DNA from: an uncultured Negativicutes bacterium | Lineage (GTDB): Bacteria > Bacillota > Negativicutes > Acidaminococcales > Acidaminococcaceae | Direction of reading: 5' to 3' | DNA length: 49,390 nucleotides | Assembly (NCBI GenBank): GCA_947074185.1 | Contig: CAMTOO010000005.1 | Location: 1-49,390 of the forward strand | Shown: positions 6,718 through 14,533 of the stretch, piece by piece | Position numbering within the stretch: position 1 is the first letter of the stretch | Layout of the letters: every line of letters begins with the position of its first letter | Program-made: the position numbers and the translations under genes | Notes under the pieces: model-generated | Database searches by the model: none | What the model saw: only the letters and a program-made list of their open reading frames with translations | What the model was told of the DNA's origin: nothing

Positions 6718-7887
6718 TTATTTTCTACTACCTAACCTATACTTAAAATCGTCATAACCAAATCTTGCTAACAATTCGCATTGATCATCTTCTCTTAATA
6801 CAAAGATATCAGGCAGTGGCATTCCATTAAAAGTATTATTCTTACAAGTTGAATATATTGCCATGTCTTCGAAAATCAACTTACTACCTTCTTCTAACAT
6901 TGTATCAAAGCTATAGTCTCCTGTTATATCCCCTGCTAAGCAAGTTGCTCCACCTAATCTATAGGTATACGCTTTTTCTTGCGGAAGGCCTGAGTTATAC
7001 AAAGGTGGTCGATATGGCATCTCGATGACGTCAGGTGTGTGACAAGCCGCAGAAGTATCTAATATAGCAATATTAGTTTCGCCATTTTTCAGTACATCTA
7101 ATACTGTAGTTACCAAATATCCTGCTTTTAATGCCACTGCCTCACCAGGCTCTAAATAAACTTCAACTCCATATTCCTCTTGTACTTCTTTTATACATTT
7201 TTCCAAAAGATTAATATCATAATCTTCACGTGTAATGTGATGACCACCACCAAAGTTTATCCATTTCAAATTATACAAATACTTACCGAATTTTTCCTTA
7301 ACTACTGTTAAAGTCGTTTCAAGAGCATCAGAATTCTGTTCACATAAAGTATGAAAATGAACTCCATCTAATAATGCTATCGTTTCAGCATCCATTTGCT
7401 CTTCCCATTGCGCAAGTGTAGTACCTAGTCTACTACCAGCTGCACATGGGTCATAAATTGCATGCTCGGTTTCTTGTGTAGAGCACTCTGGATTAATGCG
7501 AATACCAATATGCTTACCAGCAGCTTTTGCCTTTCCAGCGAACTTTTTAAGCTGACTTGGGCTATTAAAAACTATATGTCCAGCATATTTTAAAATTTCA
7601 TCAAATTGATTTTCTTTATACGCTCCGCAAAATACATGACATTCCTTACCAGGCATTTCCTCAGCACCTAGACGCGCTTCATATAAACCGCTAGCTTCTG
7701 TGCCAGCCAAATAAGGCTCAATAGTCTTATATAAATCATAATTTGAAAAAGCTTTTTGTGCTAATAATATTTTACAGCCTGTACGTTCTTGCACGCTCTT
7801 TAATATTTCCCCATTAGCTTTCAACTTAGCTTCATCAAGCACATAGCAAGGTGTTGGTAATTTCTCTAAAATATCTTTTTTAACCAT
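6718..7887 (-). CDS. nspC: Carboxynorspermidine/carboxyspermidine decarboxylase
   Basis: PLP-dependent fold-III decarboxylase, 389 aa, the usual length for NspC. It removes the carboxyl group from carboxy(nor)spermidine to yield (nor)spermidine. The PLP lysine lies in LLAQKAFSNYD near residue 44. Other hallmarks are GIRINPEC, HFHTLCEQ, INFGGGHHIT, EPGEAVALKAGY and the DTSAACHTPDV cysteine region. It begins one base after the stop codon of the dehydrogenase upstream, so the two are translationally coupled and act in sequence. Triamine chain length (norspermidine or spermidine) cannot be read from sequence; the putrescine-forming enzymes in the operon make spermidine more likely. Confidence 0.9.
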   Translation of the reverse strand: MVKKDILEKLPTPCYVLDEAKLKANGEILKSVQERTGCKILLAQKAFSNYDLYKTIEPYLAGTEASGLYEARLGAEEMPGKECHVFCGAYKENQFDEILKYAGHIVFNSPSQLKKFAGKAKAAGKHIGIRINPECSTQETEHAIYDPCAAGSRLGTTLAQWEEQMDAETIALLDGVHFHTLCEQNSDALETTLTVVKEKFGKYLYNLKWINFGGGHHITREDYDINLLEKCIKEVQEEYGVEVYLEPGEAVALKAGYLVTTVLDVLKNGETNIAILDTSAACHTPDVIEMPYRPPLYNSGLPQEKAYTYRLGGATCLAGDITGDYSFDTMLEEGSKLIFEDMAIYSTCKNNTFNGMPLPDIFVLREDDQCELLARFGYDDFKYRLGSRK

Positions 7888-7888
7888 C

Positions 7889-9148
7889 TTAATCTACCAA
7901 TACAGGTTCTGTCGTATCTTTATGTGGCAAACCATGTTTAGCTAATAATTCAATAAATGGATCTGGATCAAATTCTTCTACAGTATGAACACCAGCTTTA
8001 ATCCATTTTCCATTGAGCATGAGCATAGCACCGCAAACAGCAGGTACGCCTGTAGTATAAGAAATAGCTTGTGAACCTACTTCTTTATAACATTCTTCAT
8101 GGTCACAAATATTATAAATATAGTAAGATTTTGGTTTACCATCTTTTGTCCCAGTGAATATACAACCTATATTAGTTTTACCTTTAGTGCGTGGTCCTAA
8201 ACTTGCAGGATCAGGTAATAAAGCTTTCAAAAATTGAATAGGAACAATCTCTTTACCGTCAAAATTAATTGGTGTTGTACTAAGTAGACCTACATTCTCT
8301 AAACAATTCATATGAGTAAGATAGCTTTGTCCAAAAGTCATAAAGAAACGAATTCTTTTTACTCCAGGAATATTTTGTGCTAAAGATTCAATTTCTTCAT
8401 GATGTAAGAGATACATATCTTTATCTCCTACTGCTTCAAAATTATATTCACGTTTGATACTCATTGCAGGAATTTCTACCCATTTACCATTTTCCCAATA
8501 ACTACCAGGAGAAGATACTTCCCTCAAATTAATTTCTGGATTGAAGTTAGTTGCAAATGGATAACCATGGTCTCCACCATTGCAATCTAAGATATCAATG
8601 GTATCAATACTATCAAATTCGTGTTTTAAAGCATATGCGCAATAAGCTTGTGTTACACCAGGATCAAACCCGCAACCCAAAAGCGCTGTAAGTCCAGCTT
8701 GTTCGAATTTTTCTTTGTATGCCCATTGCCATGAATAATCAAAATATGCAGAGAATCCTTTTTCTTTGCAACGTTTTTCATAAATAGCACGCCATTTTTG
8801 ATCTTCAGTATTTTCCGGCTCATAATTTGCAGTATCCATATAATTTACGCCACAAGCAAGGCACGCATCCATAATAGTTAAATCTTGGTATGGAAGTGCA
8901 ATGTTCATAACCAAATCCGGTTGATAACTTTTGATTAAAGCGATTACCTCATCAACATTATCAGCATCCACTTGTGCTGTAGTAATTTTAGTAGAAGTCT
9001 TAGGCGTTAATTCCGCAGCGATTGCATCACATTTAGATTTAGTTCTGCTAGCAACACAAATTTCGCTAAACACCTCGCTATTTTGACAACATTTGTTAAT
9101 AACAACTCCGGCAACGCCACCGCAACCAATAATTAATACTTTACTCAT
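7889..9148 (-). CDS. Carboxynorspermidine/carboxyspermidine dehydrogenase (saccharopine dehydrogenase family)
   Basis: NAD(P)H-dependent enzyme, 419 aa. It condenses a diamine with aspartate semialdehyde and reduces the imine to carboxy(nor)spermidine. Residues 4-14 form the Rossmann loop VLIIGCGGVAG, and the catalytic region includes LLGCGFDPGVTQAYC and NGGDHGYPF. The family also contains saccharopine and lysine-pathway enzymes, but the neighbouring decarboxylase, agmatinase and arginine decarboxylase fix the polyamine role. AAGGAGATG precedes the ATG. Aspartate semialdehyde would derive from the aspartokinase pathway, whose lysC lies a few kilobases upstream on the same strand. Confidence 0.9.
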   Translation of the reverse strand: MSKVLIIGCGGVAGVVINKCCQNSEVFSEICVASRTKSKCDAIAAELTPKTSTKITTAQVDADNVDEVIALIKSYQPDLVMNIALPYQDLTIMDACLACGVNYMDTANYEPENTEDQKWRAIYEKRCKEKGFSAYFDYSWQWAYKEKFEQAGLTALLGCGFDPGVTQAYCAYALKHEFDSIDTIDILDCNGGDHGYPFATNFNPEINLREVSSPGSYWENGKWVEIPAMSIKREYNFEAVGDKDMYLLHHEEIESLAQNIPGVKRIRFFMTFGQSYLTHMNCLENVGLLSTTPINFDGKEIVPIQFLKALLPDPASLGPRTKGKTNIGCIFTGTKDGKPKSYYIYNICDHEECYKEVGSQAISYTTGVPAVCGAMLMLNGKWIKAGVHTVEEFDPDPFIELLAKHGLPHKDTTEPVLVD

Positions 9149-9174
9149 TTTTCATCTCCTTATAATCACATAAC

Positions 9175-10038
9175 TTATTTATTCATATTTTTACTTAAAG
9201 CAAGTAAAAATTCTCTTGTTACTTTACATGCAAGGGCTGTACTAGCACCTGTTTGATCAAGCATTGGATTTAATTCATTAATGTCTGCACCAACAACTTT
9301 TTTAGCAGTTACTTTTTCAATTGCAACTAATAATTCTCCAAAGCTCGTACCACCTGCTTCTGGAGTACCTGTTCCTGGAAAATACGCTGGGTCTAAACAA
9401 TCTAAATCAATTGTAAAATAGATAGGTGCATCTCCAATTTTTGCAAGACTTTCTTCTAAGCCTTCAAAATTGAATTTATGTAAATCCGTATGTGTCTTAG
9501 CAAATTCAAACTCTGCTTTTTCACCACTACGAATACAGAACTGATGGATTTTCCCATCACCCACTAAATCATAACAACGACGAATAACAGTTGCATGACT
9601 TAACTTCGCCCCGAAAAATTCTTCTCTTAAATCTGTATGAGCATCAAAATGTACAACATGCACATCAGGATATTTTTCAAATATAGCCTCAAATGCGCCT
9701 AAAGTCACTAAATGTTCTCCACCAATAAGAAAAGGAAATTTGCCATCAGTCAAAATAATTTCAGCACGATTTCTAATATCTTTTAGTGCAGCTTCAGGAC
9801 TGCCAAAGCAAGGTTCTAATTCCCCACTATCAAATATTTTATAATCAGTTAAATCTTCATCTTGATAAGGACTATATGTTTCTAAGCCGCTACTTTCACG
9901 GCGAATAGCACTAGGGCCAAAGCGAGTACCTGGACGATAACTGGTTGTACTGTCAAAAGGTGCTCCAAAGATTACTATTTTCGCTTCATCATATTCACAA
10001 TCACAACCAATAAATGTTTCTATATTTTTTTCTAACAT
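9175..10038 (-). CDS. speB: Agmatinase (ureohydrolase family)
   Basis: Binuclear manganese ureohydrolase, 287 aa. It hydrolyses agmatine to putrescine and urea. Metal-binding motifs are all present: GGEHLVT, HFDAHTDLR (near residue 130) and DLDCLDPAYFPGTGTPE, then GADINELNP. The start codon overlaps the stop of the upstream aminopropyltransferase (TAATG), so the two are coupled. Its place next to arginine decarboxylase defines the arginine-agmatine-putrescine route. An action on N1-aminopropylagmatine, as in Thermus, is possible because an aminopropyltransferase is fused into the same operon. Confidence 0.9.
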   Translation of the reverse strand: MLEKNIETFIGCDCEYDEAKIVIFGAPFDSTTSYRPGTRFGPSAIRRESSGLETYSPYQDEDLTDYKIFDSGELEPCFGSPEAALKDIRNRAEIILTDGKFPFLIGGEHLVTLGAFEAIFEKYPDVHVVHFDAHTDLREEFFGAKLSHATVIRRCYDLVGDGKIHQFCIRSGEKAEFEFAKTHTDLHKFNFEGLEESLAKIGDAPIYFTIDLDCLDPAYFPGTGTPEAGGTSFGELLVAIEKVTAKKVVGADINELNPMLDQTGASTALACKVTREFLLALSKNMNK

Positions 10039-10889
10039 TATTCTACCTCCTCAAGCATTTGTTCTAAGAAGGCTGGCAAATAAAACGCCCCTACATGAAG
10101 CCTTGTTGTATAATACCTGGTTCTCATTCTAAGTGCATTCCATGCTTTTGCATCTAAATCATCAATCGGATGATATTTTTTACTAGCAAATCCGAAAAGC
10201 CAATAGCCTGCTGCATAAGTTGGGATATGCGCTTGATACACCCTGCTAATTGGGAAGGTGTTGAAAATACGCTTATGACTACGTTGCATAGCATGTGCAT
10301 CTTCTTCATAGAAAGGACTACCTTGCTGATTAACCATGATACCATCTTCTTTTAGAGCTTTATAGCAGTTACCATAAAATTCTCTTGTAAATAAGATTTC
10401 AGACGGTCCATATGGATCATTAGAATCTACAATTATTAAGTCGTAATCATTTTCACATTTACGAATAAATTTCAAAGCATTGCCAAAATAAATATGTACA
10501 CGCTCGTCATCTAAACGTGATGCATTATTAGGTAGATATTGTCTACATGCCTCAACAACTAATGGGTCCATTTCAACCAAATCTATTTGTTCAATGGTTT
10601 CATACCTAGTTAATTCCTTGACTACCCCACCATCGCCAGCACCAATAATTAGTACCTTACGGATATTTGGGTGGACAGCCATTGGTACATGAGCAATCAT
10701 TTCATTATAGATAAATTCATCACGTTCTGTAAGCATGATATTACCATCTAGAGAAAGGACTCTACCAAATTCCGTAGTTTCAAAAACATCGATTTGCTGA
10801 TAGTCGCTTTCCTTCGAATATAGTTGCTTTTCAACGCGAATACTAAGTTTTACATCTTTAGTATGTTTCTCACTAAACCATAAATCCAT
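10038..10889 (-). CDS. speE: Polyamine aminopropyltransferase (spermidine synthase family)
   Basis: Transfers an aminopropyl group from decarboxylated S-adenosylmethionine to an amine acceptor such as putrescine or agmatine. It is ~283 aa and closely resembles Bacillus-type SpeE. Seen are the acceptor-gate region ERDEFIYNEMIAHVP, the nucleotide loop GAGDGGVVKEL, the catalytic VDSNDPYGPSEILFT and IPTYAAGYWLFGFASK. An adenine-site Asn-Ala pair (FGNALKF) replaces the more common Asp-Gly. Two ATGs are possible (10895 and 10889); the second lies about 7 nt from AAGGAGGTG and is preferred. No speD is in the window, so the aminopropyl donor must come from elsewhere. Confidence 0.85.
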   Translation of the reverse strand: MDLWFSEKHTKDVKLSIRVEKQLYSKESDYQQIDVFETTEFGRVLSLDGNIMLTERDEFIYNEMIAHVPMAVHPNIRKVLIIGAGDGGVVKELTRYETIEQIDLVEMDPLVVEACRQYLPNNASRLDDERVHIYFGNALKFIRKCENDYDLIIVDSNDPYGPSEILFTREFYGNCYKALKEDGIMVNQQGSPFYEEDAHAMQRSHKRIFNTFPISRVYQAHIPTYAAGYWLFGFASKKYHPIDDLDAKAWNALRMRTRYYTTRLHVGAFYLPAFLEQMLEEVE

Positions 10890-10913
10890 TTTCATACACC
10901 TCCTTATTTCAAA

Positions 10914-12383
10914 CTATTTCAAAACATTAAGCCATTCAATTTCTGGATCTTCCGGTCCAGTCATATTACAGCCTTTTTCTTTTGCATATTTTATATAAGT
11001 CAAAATTTCTTTAGTGATTCTTTCACCAGGAGCAACAATAGGAATACCTGGTGGATAGCACATAACAAACTCACTACACACTCTACCTTCAGTTTCCATA
11101 ATAGGTAAAGATTCTTCCTTTTCTGCATAAAAAGCATCTTGAGGACTTGCTACAACTTGTGGAACAATATACTCTTGACTAAGCATACCTGTTTTGTCAC
11201 GTTGATAACGACGACGAATTTCTGCTAAAGCACTTACTAAACGTTCAACTTCTTGAATTCTATCTCCAATAGATAAGTACGCTAAAATATTTCCCAAATC
11301 GCCAAACTCAATTTGAATATCATAATCATCTCTCAAAGTATCATACACTTCGATACCAGCAAGACCTATATCAAGAGTATGCACACTAAGTTTTGTGTGA
11401 TCAAAATCAAAAACTGAATCTCCATTGATAAGTTCTTTGCCAAAAGCATAATAACCACCAATTGCATTTATTTCACTACGAGCATATTCAGCAATTTCAC
11501 TTACTTTTTCAAAAATTTTCTTCCCACGCAAAGCAAGATTTCTACGAGAAATATCAAGGCTACTCATTAATAAATAGCTACCAGAAGTTGTTTGAGTAAG
11601 ATTTATAATTTGACGAATATAACCTTCGTGTACATTAGGCCCAGCTAATAAAAAGCTTGATTGTGTTAAACTTCCACCACTTTTATGCATAGATACTGAA
11701 CTCATATCAGCACCAGCAGCCATTGCAGAAATAGGTAAATTTTCGCCGAAATAAAAATGTGTTCCATGAGCTTCATCAGCTAAGCAAAGCATGTTATTTT
11801 CATGCGCCATATCAACTATCGTTTTCAAATCAGAACAAATTCCATAGTATGTAGGATTGTTTACCAAAATTGCAACTGCATCTGGATTTTCAGCAATAGC
11901 TTTAGCAACTTCTTCTTTTTTCATGCCAAGTGAAATACCTAAGTTCGGATCAACTTCAGGATTCACATAAACAGGATGTGCACCACATAATACTAAAGCA
12001 TTAATAACACTACGATGAACATTTCGAGGCAATATTATTTTATCTCCGCGCTTACAAGCAGTAAGCACCATACTTTGTACTGAACTTGTGGTTCCACCTA
12101 CCATCAAAAAAGCATGAGCAGCGCCAAATGCTTCAGCTGCAAGTTTTTCTGCTTCCCTAATGACAGAAACTGGGTGACATAAATTGTCTAAGGGTTTCAT
12201 GCTATTTACATCTACGCCAACGCATTGTTGTCCCAAAAAAGCTGTTAGTTCTGGATTCCCCCTACCACGTTTATGGCCTGGAACATCAAAAGGAACTACT
12301 CGCATTTGTCTAAATTTTTCTAACGCTTCATGAATAGGTGCGCGTTTTTGATCTAATTCAGTTTTTTCTTTTTCCAAACTCAT
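10914..12383 (-). CDS. speA: Arginine (Orn/Lys/Arg-family) decarboxylase
   Basis: PLP-dependent fold-I decarboxylase of the short Bacillus SpeA type, 489 aa. Hallmarks are the N-terminal PLP-subfamily region (DVPGHKRGRG, DNLCHP), the aspartate loop in LADEAHGTHF and the Schiff-base lysine in SVSMHKSGGSL. A small C-terminal domain follows (YPPGIPIVAPGE). Sequence alone does not separate arginine from lysine or ornithine specificity; adjacency to agmatinase favours arginine. The frame extends to a GTG at 12395, but ATG 12383 has GAGGTGTAGG just upstream and is preferred. It is the first gene of the operon behind the structured leader at 12423-12786. Confidence 0.9.
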   Translation of the reverse strand: MSLEKEKTELDQKRAPIHEALEKFRQMRVVPFDVPGHKRGRGNPELTAFLGQQCVGVDVNSMKPLDNLCHPVSVIREAEKLAAEAFGAAHAFLMVGGTTSSVQSMVLTACKRGDKIILPRNVHRSVINALVLCGAHPVYVNPEVDPNLGISLGMKKEEVAKAIAENPDAVAILVNNPTYYGICSDLKTIVDMAHENNMLCLADEAHGTHFYFGENLPISAMAAGADMSSVSMHKSGGSLTQSSFLLAGPNVHEGYIRQIINLTQTTSGSYLLMSSLDISRRNLALRGKKIFEKVSEIAEYARSEINAIGGYYAFGKELINGDSVFDFDHTKLSVHTLDIGLAGIEVYDTLRDDYDIQIEFGDLGNILAYLSIGDRIQEVERLVSALAEIRRRYQRDKTGMLSQEYIVPQVVASPQDAFYAEKEESLPIMETEGRVCSEFVMCYPPGIPIVAPGERITKEILTYIKYAKEKGCNMTGPEDPEIEWLNVLK

Positions 12384-12422: not shown

Positions 12423-12457
12423 AAAAAAACGCAAGCAACGGTTACACGTTACTTGCG
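12423..12457 (-). terminator. Intrinsic terminator ending the polyamine leader RNA
   Basis: Minus strand: stem CGCAAGTAACG / CGTTGCTTGCG (one G-U pair) with a 6-nt loop, then seven T. It lies about 40 nt before the decarboxylase start codon. The upstream gene has its own terminator at 12821-12851, so this one belongs to the leader and must be bypassed to express the operon. Confidence 0.85.
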
Positions 12458-12460
12458 CAT
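12449..12460 (-). other. Possible minimal upstream ORF Met-Arg-Lys-stop
   Basis: ATG CGC AAG TAA on the minus strand. The three codons after ATG lie entirely within the 5' arm of the terminator stem. A weak GGA ribosome-binding element sits 7 nt upstream. A ribosome initiating here would prevent the terminator from forming. Chance occurrence is quite possible for so short a frame. Confidence 0.25.
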
Positions 12461-12791
12461 AAATTTATCCAATATAATTAAAAGACACTACACCTAATAC
12501 ACCTAAGTATAGTTCTACCTTTGGAAAATTTGAAATGTCAGAGTCTATATAGCAATTACACTTTTACTACTCTTATTGACCGTTTCACAAGTCTGTGCAC
12601 CAACACAATTTCGGTTATGAAGTAACCAACTTATAAAATTTGAGCTTCTAACTCAATCAATAAGGCAACTTATGTTGCCAGTCGGCAGTGGACCCGGCTG
12701 TCCGGATGGCCTTGACTTCCAAAGGAAGTGGTCCAATATAATTTGCCTGGAAAGACCCTGATCTCACTACTATCTTTCCAAATGCTTTTTT

Positions 12792-12820
12792 ATTCTAACA
12801 TGCAGACAACATACTGTCAA
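12792..12820 (-). promoter_or_regulatory. Consensus promoter of the polyamine leader/operon
   Basis: Minus strand: -35 TTGACA (12815-12820), exactly 17-nt spacer, -10 TAGAAT (12792-12797). Start predicted at about 12786. The -35 abuts the T tract of the upstream terminator. Confidence 0.85.
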
Positions 12821-12857: not shown

Positions 12858-14519
12858 TTATAATACTGCTTTAAACGCTGAGCCACCTACAAACTCACGT
12901 AAAATTGAGTTATGAGGAATACTATCAATATCTAAAGGTAATACTAATTCTGAAATCGCAAGTAATCTTTGTGCATTAGTATATTCTTTTTCTGTTTCAG
13001 GAACACCCTTTAATAATGGCTCTGCATATTTTTTCAAAACAGCAAATTCATAAATTAAAGTTGTATTGAAAATAATATCAGCACTAGCTTGATAAGGGAA
13101 AATATACTTTTCCTCCCCTGCTCTTACATCAGACCATAACTTCAAAGTCATAAGTGCATCATGAGATCTAAACTGAGAATCTCTAACCATACGTCTTAAA
13201 AGTCTCATATCGGTAGTTTGAATACGATTGAAATCATCAATAGACATTGGTGTAAGCGGACTAATATAAATTTTCATTTTATGTTCATCAGGAATTGAAT
13301 CAGAAAGTTTCTCGTTCAAGCCATGAATACCCTCTACTACTAAAACACTGTTTTCTTCCATGGTTAAAGTAGTTCCTCTATATTCACGCATGCCTGTTCT
13401 AAAATTGTACTTAGGCATCTTAACTGTTTCACCTTCTAAAAGTTGACTAATATGCCTATTAAACAATACTAAATCGATAGCTTCTATACACTCAAAATCA
13501 AAATCTCCATTTTCTTTACGAGGCGTTTCTGTGCGATTAACATAATAATCATCCATAGAAATTGGAATCGGTTTAATCCCGTTAACAGCAAGTTGAATAC
13601 TTAAACGCTGAGCAAAGCTAGTTTTACCAGAGGATGAAGGCCCTGCAATAAGTACTAATTTAAGTTCTTTATTGTTCTCAGCAATCTTATCTGCAATACC
13701 AGCTATTTTCTTTTCATGCAAAGCTTCAGAAACTTTAATAATTCCATCTACGCCGCCATCCTTAATTAAGTCATTAAGTTTAGCAACGGTATTACAACCA
13801 ATCATAGCAGACCATTCTTCAGTTTCAGTATAAATACTGTTTAGACGCGGATCTGGAGTCCAAGGATCTAGTCTAGTATAGTCGCCTGTATCAGGGTAAT
13901 TAATAACAATACCTTCTTCAAATCTAATAAGTTCAAACTTCTTAAGCAAAGAAACATTAGGTAGCATTGGACCATAAAAATATTCATAGATGCCATCAAG
14001 ATAGTTTGCCACAAACTCTGTTTTATCTGGATATACATCAAGCAATTTAATACGATCATGCATTTGAGTTCTTTCGCAAATCTTAACTGCTTCTTCACGA
14101 GAAATCTTCTTACGACAAATAGGTACTGCTTTATCAATTAACTTGTTCATGTAATCTGATATATCTTTTAAATCAAAATCACTTAAAACTACACCATCTT
14201 TAACAATACAATACAACGCGCTTCCAAGGGAATTACGAACTTCTACACTTACACTAGGGCGTTTTGCATTTAAGGCAGCTAAGAATAAAAATAGTAAACT
14301 ACGCACATAAACACGCATACCTTCTTCTGTATCTACATCTATAAAATCTACTCTACTGTCTTCTTCAATAGTTTTAAGCAAGCTAGTCCCTACCCCATTA
14401 TGCACACCTTCTACAATAGGAGATTTGAAAAACTCTTGGCGATCTTTACTAATTTCTAAAAGAGTTGTTCCTTTTTTATATTCTTTAATATACCCATCAG
14501 GAAAAGTAATTTTTATCAT
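12858..14519 (-). CDS. TGS-domain nucleoside (uridine-type) kinase
   Basis: About 553 aa. It has three parts: an N-terminal TGS-like domain (MIKITFPDGYIKEYKKGTTL), a ThrRS second-additional-domain-like region with an HxxxH-type segment, and a C-terminal phosphoribulokinase/uridine kinase domain. The Walker A is GPSSSGKTSFAQRL (near residue 300), followed by SMDDYYVNR and VVEGIHGLN. Such fusions are common in Firmicutes and are annotated as nucleoside kinases; the substrate is not settled from sequence. The frame extends upstream to a GTG at 14531, but that lies in the GGAGGAAATA ribosome site of ATG 14519, which is therefore chosen. The promoter may lie upstream of the hairpin at 14534-14563. 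Confidence 0.85.
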   Translation of the reverse strand: MIKITFPDGYIKEYKKGTTLLEISKDRQEFFKSPIVEGVHNGVGTSLLKTIEEDSRVDFIDVDTEEGMRVYVRSLLFLFLAALNAKRPSVSVEVRNSLGSALYCIVKDGVVLSDFDLKDISDYMNKLIDKAVPICRKKISREEAVKICERTQMHDRIKLLDVYPDKTEFVANYLDGIYEYFYGPMLPNVSLLKKFELIRFEEGIVINYPDTGDYTRLDPWTPDPRLNSIYTETEEWSAMIGCNTVAKLNDLIKDGGVDGIIKVSEALHEKKIAGIADKIAENNKELKLVLIAGPSSSGKTSFAQRLSIQLAVNGIKPIPISMDDYYVNRTETPRKENGDFDFECIEAIDLVLFNRHISQLLEGETVKMPKYNFRTGMREYRGTTLTMEENSVLVVEGIHGLNEKLSDSIPDEHKMKIYISPLTPMSIDDFNRIQTTDMRLLRRMVRDSQFRSHDALMTLKLWSDVRAGEEKYIFPYQASADIIFNTTLIYEFAVLKKYAEPLLKGVPETEKEYTNAQRLLAISELVLPLDIDSIPHNSILREFVGGSAFKAVL

Positions 14520-14533
14520 TATTTCCTCCACAA

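Follow-up and report, generated by a model that had tools for sequence, protein, structure and literature searches.

A conserved pseudoknotted leader RNA ahead of polyamine operons is a candidate spermidine riboswitch

A structured leader RNA of about 365 nt was identified ahead of a polyamine operon in a 49,390-nt stretch of DNA from an uncultured Negativicutes bacterium (contig CAMTOO010000005.1 of assembly GCA_947074185.1), hereafter the window. We propose that this RNA is a cis-acting polyamine riboswitch, with spermidine as the most likely ligand, that turns the operon OFF by premature transcription termination; we give this reading a probability of about 0.7. The computational analysis yielded a conserved structure, an association with polyamine genes, a terminator and a co-evolving antiterminator that is mutually exclusive with the conserved fold. 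From these we infer that the ligand is bound directly and that it is most likely spermidine.

Leader region and operon

The leader is encoded on the minus strand, flanked by a nucleoside-kinase-like gene (12858-14531) and the gene for a speA-like Orn/Lys/Arg decarboxylase (10914..12383, minus strand). Its promoter (12792..12820, minus strand) consists of the -35 element TTGACA (12820-12815), a 17-nt spacer and the -10 element TAGAAT (12797-12792) with TG ahead of it, and transcription is expected to start at about 12785. The first-pass annotation of this DNA had called the promoter perfect; both hexamers and their spacing are present, but the -10 element has one mismatch, giving 11 of 12 consensus letters. 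A single promoter-like site carries little weight in the window, where 5 were found compared to 5.4 expected. Among the homologues described below, a promoter with at least 10 of 12 consensus letters was found upstream of the RNA at 89 of 164 loci compared to 3.2 in shuffled sequences, and promoters at a similar distance from the RNA were kept across homologues.

As had been claimed, a separate terminator-like palindrome (12852-12826) belongs to the upstream gene. The leader ends in an intrinsic terminator (12423..12458, minus strand) composed of a 12-bp stem followed by a T run (12458-12429; -17.5 kcal/mol), and the ATG of speA (12383) is situated 40 nt past the T run. The predicted folding energy of the leader was -114.7 kcal/mol (z = -5.6), with none of 100 shuffled sequences being equally stable. 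The arrangement described earlier, in which a promoter and a structured RNA are followed by a terminator 40 nt ahead of speA, was confirmed.

The decarboxylase gene is the first of an operon whose remaining genes (6718..10895, minus strand) were assigned from open reading frames and NCBIfam matches. These are speE (10038-10895), the agmatinase gene speB (9175-10038), a carboxy(nor)spermidine synthase/dehydrogenase gene (CASDH; 7889-9148) and the nspC decarboxylase gene (CASDC; 6718-7887). A search for speD in the window's genome found none, an empty result that is weak evidence by itself; its absence is consistent with the carboxyspermidine route for which the operon has genes.

Rfam family and homologues

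The leader had been described as unrecognised, with no known RNA family fitting it, and a search of all Rfam models had been proposed as a check. This search gave a confident match to a known family, RF02440 (SpF59_sRNA), at 12682..12734 on the minus strand (67 bits compared to a gathering threshold of 37.2; model positions 1-54). RF02440, which has the alias "ldcC RNA", models a pneumococcal transcript over 54 nt; it is typed as an sRNA with its function unassigned and spans about one-quarter of the conserved region. Even at E <= 1, no other Rfam family came near threshold for the leader and no SAM-family match was obtained.

RF02440 together with a 26-base pattern identified 146 loci, and 22 more were found in further genomes, giving a first set of about 170 homologues. 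They occur in Negativicutes, Clostridia and Bacilli, as well as in one Spirochaete MAG and one Synergistaceae MAG; named hosts include Acidaminococcus, Phascolarctobacterium, Faecalibacterium, Gemmiger, Blautia, Paenibacillus, Bacillus, Neobacillus and Kurthia. The conserved part is much larger than the Rfam model: it extends over about 200 nt, beginning with P2 and ending with ACTCTG, and is flanked by the strands of P1 and of the pseudoknot. Searching with a model of the 200-nt domain (R1) identified seven more divergent copies ahead of speA or speD, and a separate model of the 3' module (R2) had hits in 25 of 398 Firmicutes genomes, which were also the ones identified by R1. In Blautia wexlerae, the opposite strand carries a ZMP/ZTP riboswitch at a distance of about 330 nt (L096:7483-7568).

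Gene context and probable identity of the ligand

Downstream sequence was sufficient for 159 loci of the first set, and in every one of them the RNA precedes a polyamine gene. This gene was speA at 58 loci, CASDH at 43, speD at 42, potA of the potABCD importer at 15 and speE at one. NCBIfam matches to spermidine synthase, agmatinase, nspC, adenosylmethionine decarboxylase and potA were above the cut-off, whereas those to carboxynorspermidine synthase, PotD and the decarboxylase were below it. The polyamine gene was the first after the RNA except at one locus of an Oscillospiraceae MAG (L098:1557-1952), where it was the second; here the RNA is followed by a gene for a P-II (GlnB-like) regulator and then by potABC, which suggests that this P-II protein belongs to polyamine import. 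The tree of the RNA contained 12 changes of context, each to another polyamine gene, with potABCD gained at least twice. Two genomes contain two copies each, one copy being ahead of speA and the other ahead of potABCD (G774) or speE (G776).

Within the window's own family, 12 genomes contained both the RNA and speA, 2 contained speA alone, none contained the RNA alone and 23 contained neither (p = 5e-8). We conclude that the RNA and speA were gained and lost jointly in this family. The stretch examined upstream of speA held no recognisable copy of the RNA in three genomes (G006, G020 and G051).

Arginine had been suggested as a ligand. As arginine or agmatine would not explain the leaders preceding speD, the carboxyspermidine dehydrogenase gene CASDH or the spermidine/putrescine importer genes potABCD, arginine is disfavoured and spermidine, the product common to all of the routes and a cargo of the importer, is favoured. 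The same cis-acting switch could respond instead to putrescine, to agmatine or to a different precursor or polyamine: agmatine and putrescine are the products of speA and speB, and the potABCD proteins match putrescine carriers too. We consider a ligand other than spermidine unlikely, however, since 85 of the 159 loci start with speD or CASDH, which act only toward spermidine or its analogues, and since the complete Bacilli CASDH-CASDC loci show no speA in the stretch examined.

Conserved structure

The conserved domain of about 200 nt (P2-P10) occupies 12539..12736 on the minus strand, where the whole R1 model matched with 217 bits (E = 1.9e-55), a score to be expected because the window was among the 42 sequences from which R1 was built. 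The segment matching RF02440 contains P2 (12734-12730/12694-12690), P2b (12729-12724/12720-12715), P3 (12711-12709/12698-12696), the conserved loop CATNCGGACA and GCCG. The remainder of the domain, also on the minus strand, consists of the P4 hairpin GGCAAC/GTTGCC (12664..12679), P5 (TTATTGA/TCAATAA; 12663-12657/12579-12573), and P10 (GAGT/ACTC and AGTAA/TTGCT) with the conserved 3' module (12540..12573). Within 12573..12663, P5 encloses P6 (12656-12640), P7 (12638-12628/12593-12583), P8 (12627-12613) and the variable P9 (12612-12594).

Six base pairs in P2, P2b and P4, two of which are in P4, covaried at E <= 0.01 among 142 sequences when compared to a phylogenetic null of alignments simulated along the tree, a home-made, R-scape-like procedure whose null is approximate. 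P3 exhibited GC-to-CG swaps in the same sequences, and a scan for all helices recovered P2, P2b, P3, P4, P5, P6, P7, P8 and P10. When 42 sequences were aligned independently with MAFFT, 92% of the cells were paired and two-sided changes were found in 26 of 52 pairs compared to 12.1 in shuffled alignments, none of 500 shuffles being as high; shifting the 3' partner by one column reduced pairing to 47%. Thus, collection of homologous leaders followed by covariation analysis, a further check that had been proposed, revealed a conserved leader with a significantly covarying structure. The window's unconstrained minimum-energy fold departs in part from the conserved fold.

For the assessment of long-range contacts, the pairing of each strand with the partner at its own locus was compared to that with partners from other loci. 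P1, the helix that closes the domain, is formed by TTTGGAAA (12775..12782, minus strand) and TTTCCAAA (12520..12527, minus strand); own pairs were better than swapped pairs at 110 of 142 loci (p = 7e-11), and the helix is present in the minimum-energy fold of the window. As a local alternative to P1, GGAAAGA (12779-12773) can pair with TCTTTCC (12755-12749). A pseudoknot is formed between GCAAATT (12740..12746, minus strand; consensus GCAAATA) and TAATTGC in the loop of P10 (12552..12558, minus strand; consensus TATTTGC). For this contact own pairs gave -7.5 kcal/mol compared to -5.1 kcal/mol for swapped pairs and were better at 120 of 141 loci (p = 1e-20), while control segments gave no comparable effect.

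The self-complementary TCCGGA loop singled out by the first-pass annotation is present in the window; it is not conserved, the consensus being TACGGA, and a role as a dimerisation loop was rejected for this reason. Two subtypes of the RNA differ jointly at alignment columns 38, 45/89, 169-170, 183-185 and 224, possibly reflecting a tertiary contact or just shared ancestry.

Either P2/P3 or P6-P9 is missing from five truncated relatives. Those without P2/P3 are L189:1501-1710 and L192:1501-1681, both ahead of speD and both retaining the pseudoknot strand, and L193:1501-1642, which is ahead of speA; these reduced forms retain P10 with the 3' module and are perhaps a minimal version of the switch. 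The two without P6-P9 (L243:1501-1630 and L245:1501-1657) are copies from one Lachnospiraceae genome, located ahead of speA and speE, and apparently use a different terminator/antiterminator pair, GGTAACATC with GATGTTATC. Such truncations are unusual for one compact aptamer and need explaining.

Other polyamine genes are under arrest-peptide control in Gammaproteobacteria, a precedent for a leader-peptide attenuator resembling the speFL/ornithine arrest peptides. We regard this mechanism as extremely improbable for the present RNA. No conserved translated uORF was found in the RNA domain of 165 loci; 127 of them have no SD-preceded ORF of at least 8 codons in the domain, the ORFs found at the other loci sit at differing places, and the conserved domain has many indels.

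Terminator and antiterminator

Using a strict single-hairpin criterion, a terminator of -12 kcal/mol or lower was found between the RNA and the gene in 79 of 153 leaders compared to 4 shuffled regions. This criterion detected no terminator at roughly half of the loci; some of the searched regions were short and some stems were imperfect. An unbiased scan was carried out in which 14-column stretches, taken at every third column, were paired with their own downstream region and compared to shuffled sequences. Columns 178-191 (GCACATCAACTTGT) stood out, with a mean Z of -1.84 and 60% of loci below -1.5; nearly all other stretches were close to zero, with weaker signals from the P1 strand and adjoining columns. 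The outlying columns correspond to the 3' strands of P9 and P7. The corresponding strand in the window, TGGTGCACAGACTTGT (12587..12602, minus strand), is the sole conserved segment of the domain that is strongly complementary to the downstream region.

This antiterminator strand co-evolves with the 5' arm of the terminator, as own pairs were better than swapped pairs (p = 7e-12); an example is the pairing of CATCACTTGT with ACAGGTGATG of the terminator 5' arm. A T run follows closely behind 101 of 123 strong antiterminator duplexes. In the window, TGGTGCACAGACTTGT pairs with GCGCAAGTAACGTGTAACC, and the duplex between the antiterminator strand and the terminator 5' arm GCGCAAGTAACG has an energy of -13.7 kcal/mol. 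Since the antiterminator strand is part of P7 and P9, the conserved fold and the antiterminator are mutually exclusive, a relationship predicted in silico from thermodynamic bookkeeping. Two other candidate antiterminators were rejected: P4 (GGCAAC) was suggested by the window alone and unsupported by the scan, and the pseudoknot strand TATTTGC gave only a weak signal (Z of about -0.4) as a main antiterminator.

The same terminator and antiterminator could be run by an RNA-binding protein or a tRNA, which the identical anatomy would serve. The very high sequence conservation of the loops fits a protein site, and the truncated forms retain the 3' module. Against this, the leader did not match a T-box covariance model or a protein-leader family at threshold, and the presence of the RNA in at least three Firmicutes classes plus single Spirochaete and Synergistes MAGs would demand an equally widespread protein, so that we judge such an attenuator to be quite unlikely.

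The first-pass annotation had also raised the possibility of a standalone ncRNA. On this reading a trans-acting or independent RNA would sit ahead of polyamine genes by chance. The pneumococcal homologue is catalogued as an sRNA (srn235/F59) of 327 nt, the size expected of a terminated leader (PMC12323649, PMC3395615), and a lung phenotype has been tabulated for it (PMC4387999). However, all classifiable homologues are linked in cis to a polyamine operon, co-evolution joins the antiterminator strand to the terminator at its own locus, and no genome of the window's family that lacks speA has the RNA. We conclude that a standalone ncRNA is very unlikely, and less likely than a cis-acting switch; the terminated leader of such a switch may accumulate.

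Discussion

The conservation, the covariation, the exclusive polyamine-gene context and the conserved antiterminator and terminator of the structured leader strongly support the view that it acts as a riboswitch or attenuator linked to polyamines. Three of the features by which a riboswitch would be recognised were found, namely a leader domain with covariation, association with genes of one metabolite across distant taxa and, in silico, a mutually exclusive expression platform. This mutual exclusion, together with negative-feedback logic, argues for the OFF direction. In the mechanism that we propose, the pseudoknotted domain (P1-P10) would fold first once transcription starts at about 12785. 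When enough polyamine is bound, P7 and P9 would stay formed, their 3' strands would be unavailable to the terminator 5' arm, the terminator (12458-12429) would form, and the speA-speE-speB-CASDH-CASDC operon would not be transcribed. With no ligand, GCAC..ACTTG of P9/P7 would pair with CAAG..GTGT of the terminator 5' arm, thereby blocking the terminator and allowing the operon to be read. Ligand-dependent changes would be expected at the P3 loop, CTTGTGAAA and the P10 loop.

We see roughly even odds that this RNA constitutes a widespread, previously undescribed class of spermidine riboswitch, filed in Rfam as an sRNA, whose aptamer is large, pseudoknotted and not related to SAM-I and which coordinates polyamine synthesis and import in Firmicutes, including gut commensals and, via RF02440, streptococci. 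Polyamine riboswitches have long been sought, and a 2023 report considered earlier claims unconvincing, described one rare class and expected more (PMC10853860). The candidate presented here links several spermidine routes with uptake. If the assignment is correct, it would provide a function for an RNA already catalogued in pneumococcus, for which a lung phenotype has been reported, and the selective recognition of a trivalent, flexible cation by a 200-nt RNA would pose a structural question of general interest.

The RNA is homologous to pneumococcal F59/srn235/SN20/Spd_sr49 and RF02440, the window scoring 67 bits on the 54-nt model. F59 lies between SP0915 and SP0916 (PMC3395615), so that it too precedes an Orn/Lys/Arg decarboxylase gene (SP0916). 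A 2025 study places the RNA (M7/srn235/F59/Spd_sr49) at TIGR4 869478-869804 (PMC12323649), and its 327 nt are similar to the full length of the window's leader (about 365 nt). A review tabulates its lung phenotype (PMC4387999), and none of these three papers gives it a molecular function. RF02440 models only P2/P2b/P3, as a Streptococcus sRNA, and its entry is without the 200-nt domain, the pseudoknot, the antiterminator, the distribution and the polyamine gene context, and our evidence suggests enlarging the family model and reclassifying it as a cis-regulatory element. The alias "ldcC RNA" indicates that somebody linked the RNA to ldcC, and others may have noticed it. A search of the accessible literature, which included few subscription journals, on SpF59, ldcC RNA and polyamine riboswitches returned no paper assigning a riboswitch role.

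The speF leader, the odc1 uORF motif and the potE motif are also RNA elements ahead of polyamine genes (PMC8632094, PMC11477304). They differ from the present RNA in occurring in other taxa (alpha-proteobacteria, or Veillonella only), odc1 acts via a uORF, and families of this type gave no Rfam match to the RNA described here. Only one spermidine riboswitch has been validated; this SAM-I variant, whose alignment contains 13 representatives, acts by spermidine-responsive transcription termination (Salvail et al. 2023, PMC10853860). It controls polyamine genes (speE, speB and ldcC), and, as proposed here, the representative studied is an OFF switch that uses a terminator and an antiterminator. 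Unlike this variant, the RNA described here has no SAM-family match, has another architecture, is much more widespread with far more representatives, and would also control potABCD.
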